This document shows positions 5,748 through 22,794 of a stretch of 26,156 bases of DNA, in pieces. Both the position numbers and the translations under genes were made by a program. The stretch lies in the IMG/VR virus record IMGVR_UViG_3300005529_000089, positions 1 through 26,156 of that record. One strand, 5' to 3'. Below the pieces are notes generated by a model. It worked only from the letters and a program-made list of their open reading frames with translations, had not been told where the DNA came from and made no database searches. The first letter of the stretch is position 1. Every line of letters starts with the position of its first letter. The DNA comes from a virus.

Positions 5748-6253
5748 GACGTCCCGGCCGCCGGGGCCGCTCCCGTGTTCTTCGCCGGCACGAATTGCAG
5801 CATCTGCCGGCTCCCAAACCACCACATGATCGCCGCCGACCACGACTGCACCGCCACCTGCGTGATGAAAATCTGCGTCGGCCCGTCTGAATGCGGGTAC
5901 AGGCAGCCGGCGAAAACCGTCAGCGCCGCCGTCAGGATCGGCCGCCACAGCGCCAGCAACCCCGCGATCACCGGCGGCACGTTATTGATCGCCGACGCCG
6001 CCAGCTGCGAGGCCTGGAACGATTTGTCCGCCCCCTCCTCCAGCTCCAGCTTCAGCTGGTCCGCGCTCTTCTTCGCATCCGCGTCCGACTGCGCGCCGAT
6101 CCGCTGCATCTCCAGCGCCGCCATCCTCTCGTCGTGGGCATACTGGTTCTTCGCCTGGAAGATCGACACGATCCCCGTCCCGATCGAGCCCACCAGGCCC
6201 AGGATTCCCCCGCTCGCCACGTTCCCGATGATTGCTCCCAGGTCCAGGCTCAC
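5744..6253 (-). CDS. Holin-like membrane protein (3TM/GTA-holin-like)
   Basis: The protein has 169 residues, with a GTG start at 6253 chosen because it overlaps the upstream stop as GTGA. The N-terminal hydrophobic segment (about 5-32, A-I-I-G-N-V-A-S-G-G-I-L-G-L-V-G) is followed by a charged helical stretch (A-H-D-E-R-M-A-A-L-E-M-Q-R, then A-K-K-S-A-D-Q-L-K-L-E-L-E-E). Two more hydrophobic segments follow near 104-127 and 135-155, ending in M-W-W-F-G-S-R. The order TM, helix, TM, TM and the W-W-F-G-S-R end resemble the holin family used for gene-transfer-agent release (three TMs, Y-F-G-S motif). It would permeabilise the inner membrane at the end of infection. The family link is from memory of the pattern. 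Confidence 0.75.
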   Translation of the reverse strand: MSLDLGAIIGNVASGGILGLVGSIGTGIVSIFQAKNQYAHDERMAALEMQRIGAQSDADAKKSADQLKLELEEGADKSFQASQLAASAINNVPPVIAGLLALWRPILTAALTVFAGCLYPHSDGPTQIFITQVAVQSWSAAIMWWFGSRQMLQFVPAKNTGAAPAAGTS

Positions 6254-6447
6254 GGGTTTTTGGCCTCCACCGTTTTCACCGCGCCTCCCAGGCGCTTTTC
6301 CAGGTCCGCGAACCTCTCCTCGATCCGCGCCTCGGCGGCTTTGAACCGCCCCTCGATCAGCGCCAGGATGCCCTCGTGCACGAGAAAAATCCCGGCCACC
6401 AGGCCTAGGATGAAACCAGCAAGCAAACCGATGAATAACCAGCTCAT
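6250..6447 (-). CDS. Small membrane protein, N-terminal TM plus coiled coil
   Basis: This 65-residue protein starts at an ATG overlapping the upstream stop. Residues 2-28 are a strong hydrophobic helix (W-L-F-I-G-L-L-A-G-F-I-L-G-L-V-A-G-I-F-L), and the rest is a charged helix with heptad-like spacing (A-L-I-E-G-R-F-K-A-A-E-A-R-I-E-E-R-F). Short N-in anchored coiled coils of this kind are seen in i-spanins and lysis accessory proteins. No lipoprotein box is present and no partner o-spanin is evident, so the role is open. Confidence 0.75.
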   Translation of the reverse strand: MSWLFIGLLAGFILGLVAGIFLVHEGILALIEGRFKAAEARIEERFADLEKRLGGAVKTVEAKNP

Positions 6448-6680
6448 GATGTCGTTGGGTTGATGTTGCCGCCGGCGTTGGTGCCGGCCTTGGCGGAAAA
6501 TTCGTGCTCCTTGTTATAACCCCACACCAGCGCCGCCACGCCCGACGCCAGGCCGCCCAGCGCCACGCCAAACCCCGTCCAGTCGGCCTTCCCCTGCGAA
6601 GCCTCGATCTCCTTCCAGAACAGGAACGTCGCTGCCGCCAGGTAAAGGACGCCGAGGATGAATTTGCGGTAGTTCTTCAT
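6444..6680 (-). CDS. Small two-TM membrane protein, possible holin or antiholin
   Basis: The protein has 78 residues, with ATG at 6680 overlapping the upstream stop. There are two hydrophobic segments, about 6-23 (F-I-L-G-V-L-Y-L-A-A-A-T-F-L-F-W) and 36-54 (G-F-G-V-A-L-G-G-L-A-S-G-V-A-A-L-V-W). They are separated by a short polar loop (K-E-I-E-A-S-Q-G-K-A-D-W), and a polar C-terminus of about 24 residues follows. Size and topology fit class II holins. No specific family is recognised. Confidence 0.75.
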   Translation of the reverse strand: MKNYRKFILGVLYLAAATFLFWKEIEASQGKADWTGFGVALGGLASGVAALVWGYNKEHEFSAKAGTNAGGNINPTTS

Positions 6681-6883
6681 GGCTGCCTTTCGTGGGCGAA
6701 GAAGTGCGCCAGATCCTTCGATGCCGATAGCATCATGAAGACGATGATCCCGATCGCCGGCCCCAGAATCTTTGGATCCGCGATAAACCGGGCGACGGTG
6801 AAATGATATTCGCCGTACAGCGTCCACACGATGCACGCCGTTTTGATGATGAATGATAGCAGGTGGGTGATCTTGGTTTTCAT
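6677..6883 (-). CDS. Small membrane protein, first of five
   Basis: This 68-residue protein starts at ATG 6883, 6 bases after the fibre-like gene stops. A basic N-terminus (M-K-T-K) leads into a hydrophobic segment around 8-23, an amphipathic middle with Y-G-E-Y-H-F, and a second hydrophobic helix at about 40-54 (L-G-P-A-I-G-I-I-V-F-M-M-L-S). The C-terminus is polar and His-rich (H-F-F-A-H-E-R-Q-P). It resembles a two-TM holin-type protein. It opens the membrane-gene block and overlaps the next gene by 4 bases. Confidence 0.7.
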   Translation of the reverse strand: MKTKITHLLSFIIKTACIVWTLYGEYHFTVARFIADPKILGPAIGIIVFMMLSASKDLAHFFAHERQP

Positions 6884-17567: not shown

Positions 17568-19499
17568 TCAGTAGTGCCCCCCGCCATCGCTCTCGTAATC
17601 CTCGTCCCGCACCGCCATCAGTTTCGAGAGCAGGAAATACCGGATGTTGTCGATCGGGTCCTTCGTCGCCCCCTTGCTCCCCTCCTTGTTCCGCCAGGTC
17701 TCCATCGCGAAGATCGTGTTTTTGCAGTCCGCCGAGATGAAAAGCTTCGGGCAGTTCAGCGCATCCACCGGCTTCAGCGTGTCGTAGTCCAGCGCGTCGT
17801 TGATGAAGCCTATCCCCTCCGCCACGTCGTCGCCCGGCGTCGGCTCGAAGAACATCCCGATCTCCGCGAAGTTCTCCAGCATCGTCACCGGCCGGTCGTC
17901 CTGCAGGTGCGGCGTGCTCGCGTAGCGCGAGTCCAGGAATCGCCGCGCCACCACCTCGCGCGCGCCGTTCTCCGCGAACCATCCGCTCACGATCTCCCTT
18001 TCCGTTTTTCCCTCCGGCCACTTTGCGCCGGCCTCGTCCTTCCAGCCTTCCAGCCGCGCGATCTCGCGCTTGTAACGCACCAGCCCGAAGCCGAAGCCGT
18101 CCTGCGCCGGTCCCTGCCGGCCGTCGCCCAGCTTCCCGTCCGGCAGCGCCCAGGGTCCGGGCAGCCCGATGTCCGTGATCTCGTAATTTCCCGGCCATTC
18201 CCGGTAGAGGTAGGCCCGCGTCGGCGTCACCACCCGGAACCAGCTCATGAAGAAATTCCTTCCGCCGCACGGGTCGATGAATAGATAATTCGTCCCCTGC
18301 AGCGGGATCGCCTCCGCTGGTATCACGTGCACGTGCCGGCTGAACTTCGGGAACTTCCGCGCCATCCCCTTTTTCGCCACCCCGTAGAAATAGCGGTTGC
18401 CCAGCTCCTCGCCCGCCGCCGCGTTCAGCAGGTACACGCTCAGCGGCTCGCCAAACGGGTTGTCGCTGCCGTGGAAGCACACGATCGCGCTCTTTTCCTC
18501 CGGGTCCGCCGGCTTCAGCACCCGCGGCACTTTTTTGAATTTGCGTCCCTCCGGCACCGCCGGCTGGCTCGGCTCGCCCGTCAGCCACTTCGCGCAATCC
18601 TCCGGCCGCGACCACGGCACGTTCGGCGGCGCGCCTTTCTTCCTTCCGTTCAGCCACTCCTTCAGCAGGCCGCACTCGTCCTCGCTCAGGCCCAGGTAGC
18701 GCGCCACGTCGCGCGGCCCGTTGTCGTCCGGGTTCAGGAACGCCGTGCTCTCGCGCACCACTTCCGCCCCGTCCCAGAATTCCTGCACCGTGTTCGTGTA
18801 CCCCTCGATCGGCGCGAAGGTGATAAAGAACCACCCGTTCGAGCGCGACACGCGCGAGCGTATCGCTTGCACAAAATCCGGCGTGATCAATTCGTCGGCC
18901 CAGGCCGCGTTCACCGTCGGCCCCTGCAGCTTGTCGATTCCGCCGTCATAGGTCCAGCAGCGGCCTCGGTGCAGGTTCGGCAGTACGAAATTTTCATCGG
19001 AGAACCCCGTCTTCACCTTGTAGGCCACGTAGGTCCCGGCCGTCAGGATCGGGCGCGATCCGCGCAGGCCCGGCGGCAGGTACTTCCAGATCAGCGGCTG
19101 CTGCTGGTCGCGCGACGAATTCAGCGTCTGGTGGAAGAACCAGGTCAGCCCGTTCGGCGTCCGCTGCATCAGCCGGCTCGTTCGGTTCGCCGCGTATTCA
19201 GTTTTTGACGACGCCCATCCGCCGTTGATCAGGATCACGTTCACCGGCTGCTTGAATTTCAGGTTGAGCCGGATCCTCTCCGCCTCCTTCTCGTCCATCC
19301 ACGGCACGCCCAGCAGCGCGTCGCACACCCGCCAGATCGGCGATTCCCAGCAGCCGTAGAGCGGGTTCTCCACCTCATGGCGGATGATTTCCTCGCGCTT
19401 CAGCAGCGCCTGGCGCCAGCCTTCGGCGCCCAACGCCGCCGCCTCGTCGGCCGTCGGCATCGTCAGCACCGGGTGGATCGTGGGCCGGAATTCGCTCAT
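17568..19499 (-). CDS. Terminase large subunit (packaging ATPase and nuclease)
   Basis: The protein has 643 residues, and the start was set at 19499 by the ATGA overlap with the upstream gene. The ATPase part has a variant Walker A, G-G-W-A-S-S-K-T at 93-100, after strand V-N-V-I-L-I. A Walker B-like V-N-A-A-W-A-D-E at 196-203 and strand F-F-I-T-F-A-P at 224-230 (coupling motif) follow. The nuclease part has acidic candidates in F-I-D-P (D409), F-L-D-S (D523) and D-N-I-R-Y-F-L (D617), matching the usual RNase H-like triad pattern. It pumps and cuts concatemeric DNA at the portal. No obvious small subunit lies directly upstream. Confidence 0.9.
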   Translation of the reverse strand: MSEFRPTIHPVLTMPTADEAAALGAEGWRQALLKREEIIRHEVENPLYGCWESPIWRVCDALLGVPWMDEKEAERIRLNLKFKQPVNVILINGGWASSKTEYAANRTSRLMQRTPNGLTWFFHQTLNSSRDQQQPLIWKYLPPGLRGSRPILTAGTYVAYKVKTGFSDENFVLPNLHRGRCWTYDGGIDKLQGPTVNAAWADELITPDFVQAIRSRVSRSNGWFFITFAPIEGYTNTVQEFWDGAEVVRESTAFLNPDDNGPRDVARYLGLSEDECGLLKEWLNGRKKGAPPNVPWSRPEDCAKWLTGEPSQPAVPEGRKFKKVPRVLKPADPEEKSAIVCFHGSDNPFGEPLSVYLLNAAAGEELGNRYFYGVAKKGMARKFPKFSRHVHVIPAEAIPLQGTNYLFIDPCGGRNFFMSWFRVVTPTRAYLYREWPGNYEITDIGLPGPWALPDGKLGDGRQGPAQDGFGFGLVRYKREIARLEGWKDEAGAKWPEGKTEREIVSGWFAENGAREVVARRFLDSRYASTPHLQDDRPVTMLENFAEIGMFFEPTPGDDVAEGIGFINDALDYDTLKPVDALNCPKLFISADCKNTIFAMETWRNKEGSKGATKDPIDNIRYFLLSKLMAVRDEDYESDGGGHY

Positions 19500-19717
19500 A
19501 CCGTCAACAGCCTCCCCTTCGATTTCCGGTTCGGCGTCGCCTGCCACACCGTGATCTCCCACTGCGGCCCGTAATCCGCGCACAACGCGCAAAATTCGGC
19601 CGAGGTCATGCTTCCGCGGTGGATTTCCACGAAGACCTCGCCACGGAAACGCCCCACGATCCGGGGCCACACCCCGGCCGTGCCGGCCCGTTCGATCCTA
19701 AGACCGCCCTGCGTCAT
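19496..19717 (-). CDS. Hypothetical small protein between HTH regulator and terminase
   Basis: The protein has 73 residues, with 4-base overlaps at both ends. It has alternating basic strands (G-G-L-R-I-E-R-A-G, R-I-V-G-R-F-R-G-E-V-F-V-E-I-H-R-G) and a short helix S-A-E-F-C-A-L-C-A-D-Y with two Cys four residues apart. Next come Q-W-E-I-T-V-W and a basic end. No family is recognised. It could be a small beta-rich nucleic-acid binding protein, but no signature confirms this. Confidence 0.75.
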   Translation of the reverse strand: MTQGGLRIERAGTAGVWPRIVGRFRGEVFVEIHRGSMTSAEFCALCADYGPQWEITVWQATPNRKSKGRLLTV

Positions 19718-20007
19718 GGCACAGCCCCCAGTTCCATCGCCTTTTCCGGCGTCCATTTCGGCCGCTTTTCCAGCCGCCTTTTGTTCCACGGCGAGCTATG
19801 TGCCACGTCCAAAAGCGCGATCTCTTCCGGCTGCAGATGCCGCTTGATTTTCTCCCACAACGCCCCGCGCCGGCGCGAGCCGTTCAGCACCCGCGAAACG
19901 CTCGCGTGGTTCCGCCCCACCATCGCCGCCAGGGTCTTCGTGTCCAGACCCCGCGCGTGCAGCCGGCGGTAAAAATAATCCATTTCGATAGGGCGGAACC
20001 CGCTCAT
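19714..20007 (-). CDS. Small helix-turn-helix DNA-binding protein (XRE/Cro-like)
   Basis: The protein has 97 residues, starting 2 bases after the anti-defence-like gene. Residues about 11-60 carry an HTH pattern: F-Y-R-R-L-H-A-R-G-L-D-T-K-T-L-A-A-M-V-G, then N-H-A-S-V-S-R-V-L-N-G (recognition helix) and W-E-K-I-K-R-H-L. This matches Cro/CI-type small regulators. The rest is short, basic and Pro/Trp-containing. As the last gene before the packaging block, it may control the switch to late transcription. No cognate repressor gene in the opposite direction is visible. Confidence 0.8.
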   Translation of the reverse strand: MSGFRPIEMDYFYRRLHARGLDTKTLAAMVGRNHASVSRVLNGSRRRGALWEKIKRHLQPEEIALLDVAHSSPWNKRRLEKRPKWTPEKAMELGAVP

Positions 20008-20009
20008 CG

Positions 20010-20435
20010 TCAGGCCTGCCTCCTTCCTTCGACGCCGCGCGCCAGCCGGTCCTTCGATCGCTTTTGCAGCCAGAGCAGCGCCTGCTCCAGATTGGTGAGC
20101 GCGAGCGCATTTTCCCGACATCCGAAAGGTCCGCGACGTTGCGCCGGAACACCTGGCATGGGATCGGTGTGCACTGGCGCCATGCCCTGGAACCCGCGCA
20201 AGCGGTCAATCACGATTGCGAGAAGTGATTCGTGGCTGATGCCATTGATCCCGTTCTCTGCGATCGGCCCTTTCTGGAGCTCGATCTTGATCTCTTTTTT
20301 GATCTGCTTGTCGGGTCCCAAATTCACTGTGATCTGGTACTCGTGGTTGGCGCCCCCGTAGGCCGGCTCGTCGGCCGCGATTACTTTGATCTCTTCATTG
20401 AAGCGGTTGATGTGATGATCGGTGATATTTCTCAT
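20010..20435 (-). CDS. Putative Acb2/Tad1-like anti-defence protein (cyclic nucleotide sponge)
   Basis: The protein has 141 residues. The N-terminus (N-I-T-D-H-H-I-N-R-F-N-E-E-I, A-D-E-P-A-Y-G-G-A-N-H-E-Y) is beta-rich, followed by K-G-P-I-A-E-N-G-I-N-G-I and a helix S-L-L-A-I-V-I-D-R-L near 70-79. The C-terminus has C-R-E-N-A-L-A-L-T-N-L-E-Q-A-L-L-W-L-Q-K-R over 106-126, the hallmark pattern of the Acb2/Tad1 helical hairpin as I remember it, and R-G-V-E-G near 133. Tad1 and Acb2 proteins bind signalling nucleotides of Thoeris or CBASS defence. About 20 residues, Pro-rich, lie between helix and hairpin as an insertion. Similarity is from memory of motifs, so ligand and activity are unknown. 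ATG 20435 is 20 bases after the helicase stop. Confidence 0.65.
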   Translation of the reverse strand: MRNITDHHINRFNEEIKVIAADEPAYGGANHEYQITVNLGPDKQIKKEIKIELQKGPIAENGINGISHESLLAIVIDRLRGFQGMAPVHTDPMPGVPAQRRGPFGCRENALALTNLEQALLWLQKRSKDRLARGVEGRRQA

Positions 20436-20455: not shown

Positions 20456-21946
20456 TTACTGTCTCTGCTTGAAATCCTTCTTTGATAGGCCGCCGCTCGG
20501 CACGTGCTTGCCCGTCGGCGCCTCCACCAGGGCGTCGGCCGCGATGTCGAAGAATCGCGTCTGCGGCCGCCAGAACCACACCGCCGGCCACGCCGTCGGT
20601 CCGTTGCGGTCCTTGTCCTGCACCAGCTCGACCATCACCTGGGATTGCTCCGCCGTCTGCTCCATCCCGCGCATGTCCGTGTCCGGCGTGTAGAGCATCA
20701 CGATCCGGTCGGCCGCCTGCTCCACCGCGCTCGAGTCGCGGATGTCGTGGGCCTTCGGCCGGCGGTTGCCCTCCTTCCGGCTCTCCCGGTTCAGCTGCGC
20801 CGCCACCCAGCCGGTCGTGTTTACCCGCTTGAAGCACCGCTTCAATTCGTTCGCGATGTGCGCCACTTCCTGTTCCCGCACGTGGATCTTCTGCCGGCAC
20901 TTCAGCAGGTGCATGTGGTCCACCACCACGAAGTCCGGCGTCCCGTGCCGGCGCGCGTGCTCCTCCACCCGCGCCACCAGCGTCTCCACCGGGATCACGT
21001 CGTCGCAGATCCACAGCCGCTCGTTGCGCCAGCTGTGCCGCAGCCGCAGCTCCTGCTCGAACCGCTCGCGCATGTCCTTCGGCAGGTCGTGCAGCAGCCG
21101 CGCGTTCACCTTCGCCGCCGTCGCCGCCGCCAGCTCGAGCCACTTCCCCATGCTCGTCTCCAGCAGGAAGACCAGCCCCTTCTTTCCCTGCTGCAGGTTG
21201 TGGTCCGCGATCTGCCGGGTCAGGGCGCTTTTTCCGCTGGATTGGATTCCGGCGAAGATGCACAGCCAGTGCTCGTTCAGCACGTCGAAGGGTCCGCATT
21301 TCTGGTCAAAATTTTTCAGCCCCGTGTAAAGCCACCGGCTCCGGTCCACCTTCCCGTCCGCCCGGGCCAGGCTGCGCTGCAAGGCCATCGCCGCGCGCTC
21401 GTCCTCCGTTTCCCGGTCGCCGCGCACCCGCTCCACCGCCCGCCCCATTTCCGCGGCGTGGGCCTCCACCAGGTCGCGCAGGCCGCCCTGGTAGTTGAAG
21501 CACTGCTCCACCACCCCGGTGCAGCGCAGGATCAGTTCCCGCAGCGTCCACAGCTCCTTTAGCTTGTCGATGAAGTAGGCCGCCTGGGCCGTCGTCGGGA
21601 TCGTCGCGCTGATCTGCGTCAGGTAGGCGTAGCCGCCCACCGCCTCGAGTTGGCCCGCCGTCTTCAGCTCCTCCGCCAGCATCGCCAGCTCCACTGGCGG
21701 CCGCGCCGCGTATAGCTCCAGGATCTTCTCGTACACGATCCGGTGGGCCGGATTGTAGAACGCCCGCGGCCCCAGCTTCGCCTTCAGGCACAGGCCGATC
21801 GTCGCGCTGCCGTCCAGCAGGCAGCAGGCCAGCAGGTACTGCTCCGCCTCGAGCGAGTGCGGGGGCGCCCGGCCGGCGATCTTGCCGCCCTCGATCACCC
21901 GCAGGCCGGACCGGCCGTTATTTGCCGCCGAATTTTCCGCGTTCAT
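20456..21946 (-). CDS. Replicative DNA helicase, DnaB-type
   Basis: The protein has 496 residues, and the ATG at 21946 overlaps the stop of the initiator gene. The N-terminal DnaB domain (about 28-175) starts P-P-H-S-L-E-A-E-Q-Y-L-L-A. The RecA-like core has Walker A G-I-Q-S-S-G-K-S at 233-240, a Glu after it (L-L-E-T-S-M, 261-266), and Walker B F-V-V-V-D-H at 339-344. Motif Q-L-N-R-E-S (384-389), D-I-R-D-S-S-A-V-E-Q (401-410) and K-D-R-N-G-P-T (445-451) complete the DnaB signature. Length is normal. It unwinds the replication fork and is probably loaded by the upstream initiator protein, whose gene ends on its start codon. Confidence 0.92.
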   Translation of the reverse strand: MNAENSAANNGRSGLRVIEGGKIAGRAPPHSLEAEQYLLACCLLDGSATIGLCLKAKLGPRAFYNPAHRIVYEKILELYAARPPVELAMLAEELKTAGQLEAVGGYAYLTQISATIPTTAQAAYFIDKLKELWTLRELILRCTGVVEQCFNYQGGLRDLVEAHAAEMGRAVERVRGDRETEDERAAMALQRSLARADGKVDRSRWLYTGLKNFDQKCGPFDVLNEHWLCIFAGIQSSGKSALTRQIADHNLQQGKKGLVFLLETSMGKWLELAAATAAKVNARLLHDLPKDMRERFEQELRLRHSWRNERLWICDDVIPVETLVARVEEHARRHGTPDFVVVDHMHLLKCRQKIHVREQEVAHIANELKRCFKRVNTTGWVAAQLNRESRKEGNRRPKAHDIRDSSAVEQAADRIVMLYTPDTDMRGMEQTAEQSQVMVELVQDKDRNGPTAWPAVWFWRPQTRFFDIAADALVEAPTGKHVPSGGLSKKDFKQRQ

Positions 21947-22794
21947 GCGAACCTCCCCTCGTTTTCCTTCTCCCGCTCCCGCTGCCAGGCCCGCGCCTTG
22001 TCCAGCTCGCTCGGCCAGTTCGCTAGCAGGAAGGGCAGCGTCGTCCGCTTCCAGTACCGCCGGCGCGCCTCCTCGCCCGTGATCTTCGCCGCGTAGAACT
22101 GCCGCACCGTCTCCACGCACTCCGCGAAGTCCGCCTCCGCCAGGTCGAGCAGCCCGGCTTCCCGCGCCACTTCGACCTCCCGCGCCAGCCACGGCGTTTT
22201 TTCCTGGCGGCAGTACGGCACCGGGATCCGGTTCAGGCAGAGCAACCGGCTGCGTAAGGGTTCAGGCTGTTCTCCTGGAACTATCGCTCCCTTGCCCCTC
22301 CTCACCCCCTTGGGGGTTGGGGGTATTCCCTGTTCCTTTCCCTGTTCCCTGTTCCCTGTTCCCTGTTCCCTGTTCCCACCGGTAGCCTTACTGGAGTCTT
22401 CCGGTAGCGTTACTGTAGTCTTACTGGAGTGTTCTGAACCGTTTTTAGAATCGTTACTTACACCGTTGAAGGCGTCCTTAAGCTTGCTCCGTTGCGCCTT
22501 CGGCACCGATTGGTGCTTGTCGAAGTTGCAAACCCGCCCAATTTGGCGTCCGTCGGAAAGGTTCCGTACCTCTACGTAACCGATACTGGAAAGCTCCTGT
22601 ACCATTACGGTAATGGTTCGGGAAAGCTCCCGTAGTGGGAAAAGTGCCGCCTGGATCAGCCGCGGGTTGGCGTTGAAGAAGCCCTCGTCGTCCGAGTAGG
22701 TCAGCAGCGCCAGCGCCAGCAGGGCCGTCTCGGCCGGCAGCGTTGACATCGCTTCGTGGCTCCAGAATTCCGGTTTAACCGTTCGTATTCTCAT
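21943..22794 (-). CDS. Replication initiator/organizer-like protein with origin repeats inside the gene
   Basis: The protein has 283 residues, with ATG at 22794 in a TGATG junction. Residues 1-110 are a winged-helix replisome-organizer-type domain (R-I-R-T-V-K-P-E-F-W, A-L-L-A-L-A-L-L-T-Y-S-D-D-E-G, I-G-Y-V-E-V-R). Residues 111-180 form a low-complexity linker with G-N-R-E-Q-G repeats. Residues 200-275 are helical and charged, perhaps a helicase-loading part. The linker DNA carries 7-bp and 11-bp tandem repeats in changing reading frames, as in lambda O where the origin lies within the gene. It ends overlapping the DnaB start. The exact family name (DnaD-like or other) is uncertain. Confidence 0.85.
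   Translation of the reverse strand: MRIRTVKPEFWSHEAMSTLPAETALLALALLTYSDDEGFFNANPRLIQAALFPLRELSRTITVMVQELSSIGYVEVRNLSDGRQIGRVCNFDKHQSVPKAQRSKLKDAFNGVSNDSKNGSEHSSKTTVTLPEDSSKATGGNREQGTGNREQGKEQGIPPTPKGVRRGKGAIVPGEQPEPLRSRLLCLNRIPVPYCRQEKTPWLAREVEVAREAGLLDLAEADFAECVETVRQFYAAKITGEEARRRYWKRTTLPFLLANWPSELDKARAWQREREKENEGRFA
22339..22377. repeat. 7-bp tandem repeat, about 5.6 units
   Basis: The plus-strand unit is TCCCTGT, five exact copies in register plus TCCC, with one more copy 12 bases to the left (22327-22333). Because 7 is not a multiple of 3, each unit gained or lost would shift the initiator reading frame, and three units restore it. Confidence 0.9.
22379..22433. other. Candidate replication origin: five 11-bp iteron-like repeats
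   Basis: Five contiguous units read CCGGTAGCCTT, ACTGGAGTCTT, CCGGTAGCGTT, ACTGTAGTCTT and ACTGGAGTGTT. Six of eleven positions are invariant and the rest are two-way choices. The spacing is one helical turn. Since 11 is not a multiple of 3 the repeat falls in all three codon phases, so it is not explained by a protein repeat. An AT-richer stretch (TTTTTAGAATCG) follows within about 15 bases. The site lies in the initiator gene, upstream of DnaB. Confidence 0.6.
22601..22617. repeat. Perfect 17-bp palindrome inside the initiator gene
   Basis: ACCATTAC, a central G, then GTAATGGT. It lies between two near-identical 14-bp direct repeats (22588-22601 and 22621-22634, 13 of 14 matching, 33 bases apart). 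The direct repeats encode E-L-S twice, so part of this may be coding, but the palindrome is not explained by that. It could be an initiator or operator site. Confidence 0.7.

Follow-up and report, generated by a model that had tools for sequence, protein, structure and literature searches.

A phage-encoded Tad1 homologue with an enlarged turn between its two helices, a probable sponge for nucleotide defence signals

The locus examined here raises the question of whether a short gene in a viral genome, placed between a helicase and a regulator, encodes a sponge for bacterial nucleotide signals, and to which sponge family such a protein would belong. The window, i.e. the whole stretch of DNA analysed, is an IMG/VR virus record of 26,156 bases. 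The tad1-like gene occupies positions 20010..20435 on the minus strand and encodes a protein of 141 residues, with an ATG start and a TGA stop, as delimited by translation, homology and predicted fold; the start is supported by its agreement with homologues beginning MRxITDH in the alignment. The translation includes ...CRENALALTNLEQALLWLQKRSKDRLARGVEG..., and the C-terminal pattern that the original prediction had likened to the Acb2/Tad1 hairpin reads as it was described.

The surroundings of the gene agree with the placement originally proposed. Its upstream neighbour on the same strand (20456..22192) encodes a DnaB-like replicative helicase (PHROG 19, E 5.6e-65; Pfam DnaB and DnaB_C), delimited as a mechanical open reading frame whose true start is probably further in, and the tad1-like gene begins about 20 bases past the DnaB stop. 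On the other side, a small HTH protein (19714..20007, minus) has its ATG two bases after the tad1 stop, the regulator being recognized from a weak HTH_31 match below the cut-off (E 0.0025). Beyond the helicase, a replication-initiation-like protein is encoded (PHROG 1408, E 1.3e-27). The assignment to an early replication block is consistent with this arrangement, from which the timing of expression is inferred.

Judged from sequence and model, the gene product is a Tad1 homologue. In a phmmer comparison with solved structures, the only matches are Tad1 proteins, with E values from 1.4e-16 to 7e-13, and gp184, at E 1.6e-5. The best match is 8kbb (CmTad1, E 1.4e-16), covering residues 18-139 of the window protein, and the CbTad1 entries follow at about 5e-13. 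The orf184 of a CBASS-resistant phage encodes Tad1 (review, PMC12043709). Furthermore, the window protein scores 162.5 bits against a profile of 99 relatives from which it had been left out, and this lies far above chance, the best of 1000 shuffles reaching 5.5 bits. A tblastn search matches 101 phage records; one of them is SBSphiJ7, the record of which labels the gene Tad1.

The profile search proposed as a check on the assignment gives a divided result: the family profile matches the solved Tad1 chains at E 7.6e-37, whereas the Pfam hairpin entry PF24729 (Acb2_Tad1_hairpin) gives the window protein 22.5 bits (E 0.00013) against a cut-off of 27 bits, probably because the hairpin is interrupted. 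This entry is matched at E <= 1 by eight of nine relatives in one alignment, and the long-turn relative L343 (see below) scores 26.5. The window protein also matches PHROG 2428 (E 6.7e-27), which is labelled as of unknown function, and gives no match in PADLOC or NCBIfam. Queried one sequence at a time, the Tad1, DnaB and major head protein of the window retrieved no relatives from IMG/VR, and a mixed-alignment query was required to find them.

The predicted fold leads to the same family. The AlphaFold2 monomer model, computed from an alignment of 100 homologues with the phage-collection rows left out, has a mean pLDDT of 90.7 and a pTM of 0.80, with strands at residues 2-4, 16-20, 32-39 and 45-53 and helices at 68-83 and 107-133. 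The four strands ahead of the hairpin bear out the expected beta-rich N-terminus, and the model reproduces the Tad1 architecture, with an antiparallel beta-sheet at the N-terminus and then two long helices. All parts of the protein map to the minus strand: the beta-sheet region, defined by the modelled strands and conserved columns, spans residues 1-67 (20235..20435) and carries the motifs GGANHEY and QKGPIAENGING; helix alpha1, with F82, spans residues 68-83 (20187..20234); helix alpha2, with N109, R126 and R130, spans residues 107-133 (20037..20117); and the family-conserved C-terminal tail GVEG..., seen in the alignments, comprises residues 134-141 (20013..20036). Among the Foldseek matches in the PDB, the top 20 are all Tad1 chains, with E values from 2.8e-9 to 6.3e-7, the next match being at E 0.49. 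A second structural aligner superimposes the model on CbTad1 in complex with 1''-2' gcADPR (7uaw) with Z 13.7 and an rmsd of 2.0 over 122 residues at 36% identity; its first row other than Tad1 has Z 5.4. A missing profile match together with a fold unlike Tad1 or Acb2, named beforehand as grounds for abandoning the original prediction, did not occur. Sequence, profile and fold all point to Tad1 and not to Acb2, with Pfam alone below threshold.

The putative ligand pocket appears to be preserved. The contacts of CbTad1, which we take to be F82, N92, R109 and R113, align by phmmer with F82, N109, R126 and R130 of the window protein, so that all four presumed pocket residues are kept. In 105 homologues these columns are occupied by the same residues in 102 (F82), 105 (N109), 105 (R126) and 104 (R130) cases. 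Conservation extends to D22, A29, H31, Y33, Q54, G56, E60, N64 and G65, each found in 97-105 of the 105, and to G137 of the C-terminal tail (103/105). All the near-invariant columns tallied, including the GVEG tail, are retained in the window protein.

The most distinctive feature of the protein is the turn between its helices. A Pro-rich stretch, GMAPVHTDPMPGVPAQRR (residues 84-101; 20133..20186, minus), delimited by the alignments, contains four prolines and consists of 18 residues replacing one, giving a net insertion of 17. The insertion noticed originally is thus real, but alignments and model locate it in the turn of the hairpin, leading from helix 1 to helix 2, and not ahead of the hairpin; it falls between the presumed pocket residues F82 and N109. 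Between Q83 and C106 the turn measures 22 residues in the window protein and exactly 5 in 100 of the 105 homologues, a proportion that is not an unbiased frequency, given that L275 was retrieved by a DNA pattern scan for long turns and L343 by a search of Verrucomicrobiota genomes. The yield of the pattern scan is moreover a lower bound, since two of the four FQ codings were covered. Turns of 18-25 residues occur in five proteins: the window protein (22), L010 (18), L275 (22), L343 (23) and L091 (25). L091 belongs to Cerasicoccus frondis, L343 to a Verrucomicrobiota genome (G234), and L010 and L275 to viral contigs. Short turns, although frequent in Tad1, are not among the published traits that define it.

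The inserts themselves differ in character. In the AlphaFold2 models, that of the window protein is a coil with a pLDDT of about 70-80, whereas that of L091 forms a beta-hairpin (residues 102-109 and 112-122) with a pLDDT of about 97. The inserts of L010, L275, L343 and L091 have the ending RG.[FY]AC in common (e.g., FNFNSRGKYAC, FDFSSRGRFAC, HDFTQRGTYAC), while the window insert ends PAQRRGPFGC and has only RG in common with them. A frameshift or assembly error as the source of the insertion is disfavoured, because the insertion is in frame, the composition by codon position is coding-like and the same site is affected in independent contigs. The best tree, inferred with the insert columns removed, places all five long-turn proteins together, with weak support (43/82). 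A second quick tree needs three changes to account for the long turn, and one clade for all of them is not rejected by an AU test (p 0.98). The insertion may have arisen once, an origin with which these trees are compatible.

Several relatives merit separate mention. In G234, the long-turn Tad1 of L343 (1492-2229, minus) is joined to a preceding N-terminal domain, about 100 residues long, with matches to PHROG 419 (E 3.5e-24) as well as PHROGs 4502 and 1810, none of which has a known function. Two Tad1-like open reading frames occur in the viral contig L050, nearly back to back (6001-6381 and 6397-6738), and two in the viral contig L056 (4051-4410 and 5995-6378). Archaea-binned contigs L113, L115, L122 and L153 (Thermoplasmatales, Heimdallarchaeota, Pacearchaeota and Lokiarchaeota) also carry Tad1-like genes, which may reflect binning errors or archaeal viruses. 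In the relatives L154 and L155, from Poribacteria contigs, the CREN start of the helix is replaced by ...ATEIYDGWNDRTLGLIESAL... and the second half is divergent.

Regarding the host, the large-terminase-like protein of the window (17568-19493, minus; function inferred from motifs) was compared with bacterial genomes. It has no match in Pfam or PHROG and only one, distant, among phage records (Phage C75C1, 23.5% identity). Of 387 Verrucomicrobiota genomes, 13 contain a match to it, with E < 1e-40 in eleven; among 388 genomes from the same phylum as a Rhizobium there are 3 (E about 3e-4), and among 382 from the phylum of a Planctomycetaceae genome there are none. Since the matches are concentrated in Verrucomicrobiota relative to the two comparison phyla, a host in this phylum is likely. 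CD-NTase genes (SMODS) exceed the cut-off in 9 of 194 Verrucomicrobiota genomes, and the ThsA-type STALD domain is found in 2 of 194, a context that supports a sponge function.

Taken with the sequence and the model, this makes it very probable that the window gene encodes a Tad1-family sponge for nucleotide signals made by TIR proteins and/or CD-NTases, with a rare structural variation. In Tad1, the pockets between protomers take up gcADPR or cyclic dinucleotides, the trimer interfaces take up cyclic trinucleotides, and neither kind of ligand is degraded (review, PMC12043709). The window protein would accordingly be expected early, from the replication block, and may assemble into a dimer and probably, in the Tad1 arrangement, a hexamer of three dimers. 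It would bind, without hydrolysis, the gcADPR made by host TIR proteins (Thoeris) and/or the cyclic di- and trinucleotides made by CD-NTases (CBASS); with the signal sequestered upon infection, the defence effector would never be switched on. The insert might, as a guess, alter the rim of the pocket or the packing of the dimer while leaving the sponge mechanism intact. Against such a role, the insert lies between two of the presumed pocket residues, where it could impair binding or prevent it entirely.

The principal alternative is that the long turn has changed the specificity of the protein, extending across the pocket or the trimer axis to select a non-classical signal matched to Verrucomicrobiota defence. 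The sharp divide in turn length, the position of the insert between F82 and N109, the origin of two of the four long-turn relatives in Verrucomicrobiota genomes, the ordered hairpin of L091 and the RG.[FY]AC ending common to the four all favour it. However, with no change among the presumed pocket residues, the classical ligand should still be accommodated, and the window insert is a predicted coil with little resemblance to the others; changed specificity is consequently possible but doubtful. A broader form of this proposal, in which phages and prophages of Verrucomicrobiota carry a Tad1 subclass whose turn at the signal pocket is enlarged, sometimes as a beta-hairpin, confers a different ligand range or assembly and answers an undescribed defence signal, appears unlikely.

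Two further readings depart from a Tad1 sponge altogether. The protein may be a decayed or repurposed Tad1 that no longer sequesters signals and fulfils another role, e.g., a structural or regulatory one, beside the HTH gene. Its end branch is long (about 1.3 changes per column), so that it may have drifted in function, and the sub-threshold Pfam score points the same way; but the retention of N109, R126, R130 and the other tallied columns, the open frame, whose codon positions show a coding-like base composition, and the confident fold prediction render such decay improbable. It is even harder to credit that the protein is a sponge of the Acb2 type, a hairpin alone that binds cyclic di- and trinucleotides. 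The PF24729 hairpin is indeed in common, but the protein aligns with Tad1 over its whole length, and the strong matches among solved structures are all Tad1, apart from gp184. Acb2 as the family is rejected on account of the modelled N-terminal beta-sheet, with which the protomer is more than a hairpin.

Under the Tad1 sponge reading, an anti-defence family already characterised would reach into the phages of a phylum that has received little study, with a concrete structural difference beside the presumed signal pocket that is open to testing. If the enlarged turn changes specificity, such proteins could help to probe the nucleotide signals on which Verrucomicrobiota defence systems rely. If it does not, the protein is one more Tad1, useful mainly as one missed by the Pfam cut-off, PADLOC and NCBIfam.

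Among known systems, CbTad1 from a Clostridium botulinum prophage (PDB 7uaw, 8smd, 8kbf) is like the window protein in fold, as given by the structural alignment above, but lacks the 17 extra residues of the alpha1-alpha2 turn and has GPIAENGINGI where the window protein has GARKEEKSQHGV. CmTad1 (PDB 8kbb-8kbd), presumably from Clostridioides mangenotii, is the best single-sequence match, with the GPI.E.GING motif and the CRENA.A.T helix in common, and differs in its short turn (FQDSPYKCREN). The Tad1 of Bacillus phage SBSphiJ7 (UPI13470.1), described as an anti-Thoeris protein (review, PMC12043709), aligns along its whole length at 38-39% identity; its turn is short, its N-terminal loop longer and its host a Bacillus. 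Acb2 has the two-helix hairpin (Pfam PF24729) in common, yet is without the N-terminal beta-sheet (PMC12043709). Its length is about 94 residues, compared with 141. The long-turn relatives L091, L343, L010 and L275 carry the insert at the same place and are 46-53% identical to the window protein. They differ from its Pro-rich coil in their RG.[FY]AC endings and, in the one modelled, in an ordered beta-hairpin, and L343 also in its N-terminal fusion domain. The family is thus a known one, Tad1, and what appears unusual from the sequences compared is the net insertion of 17 residues in the turn, seen in few relatives, some of them from Verrucomicrobiota.
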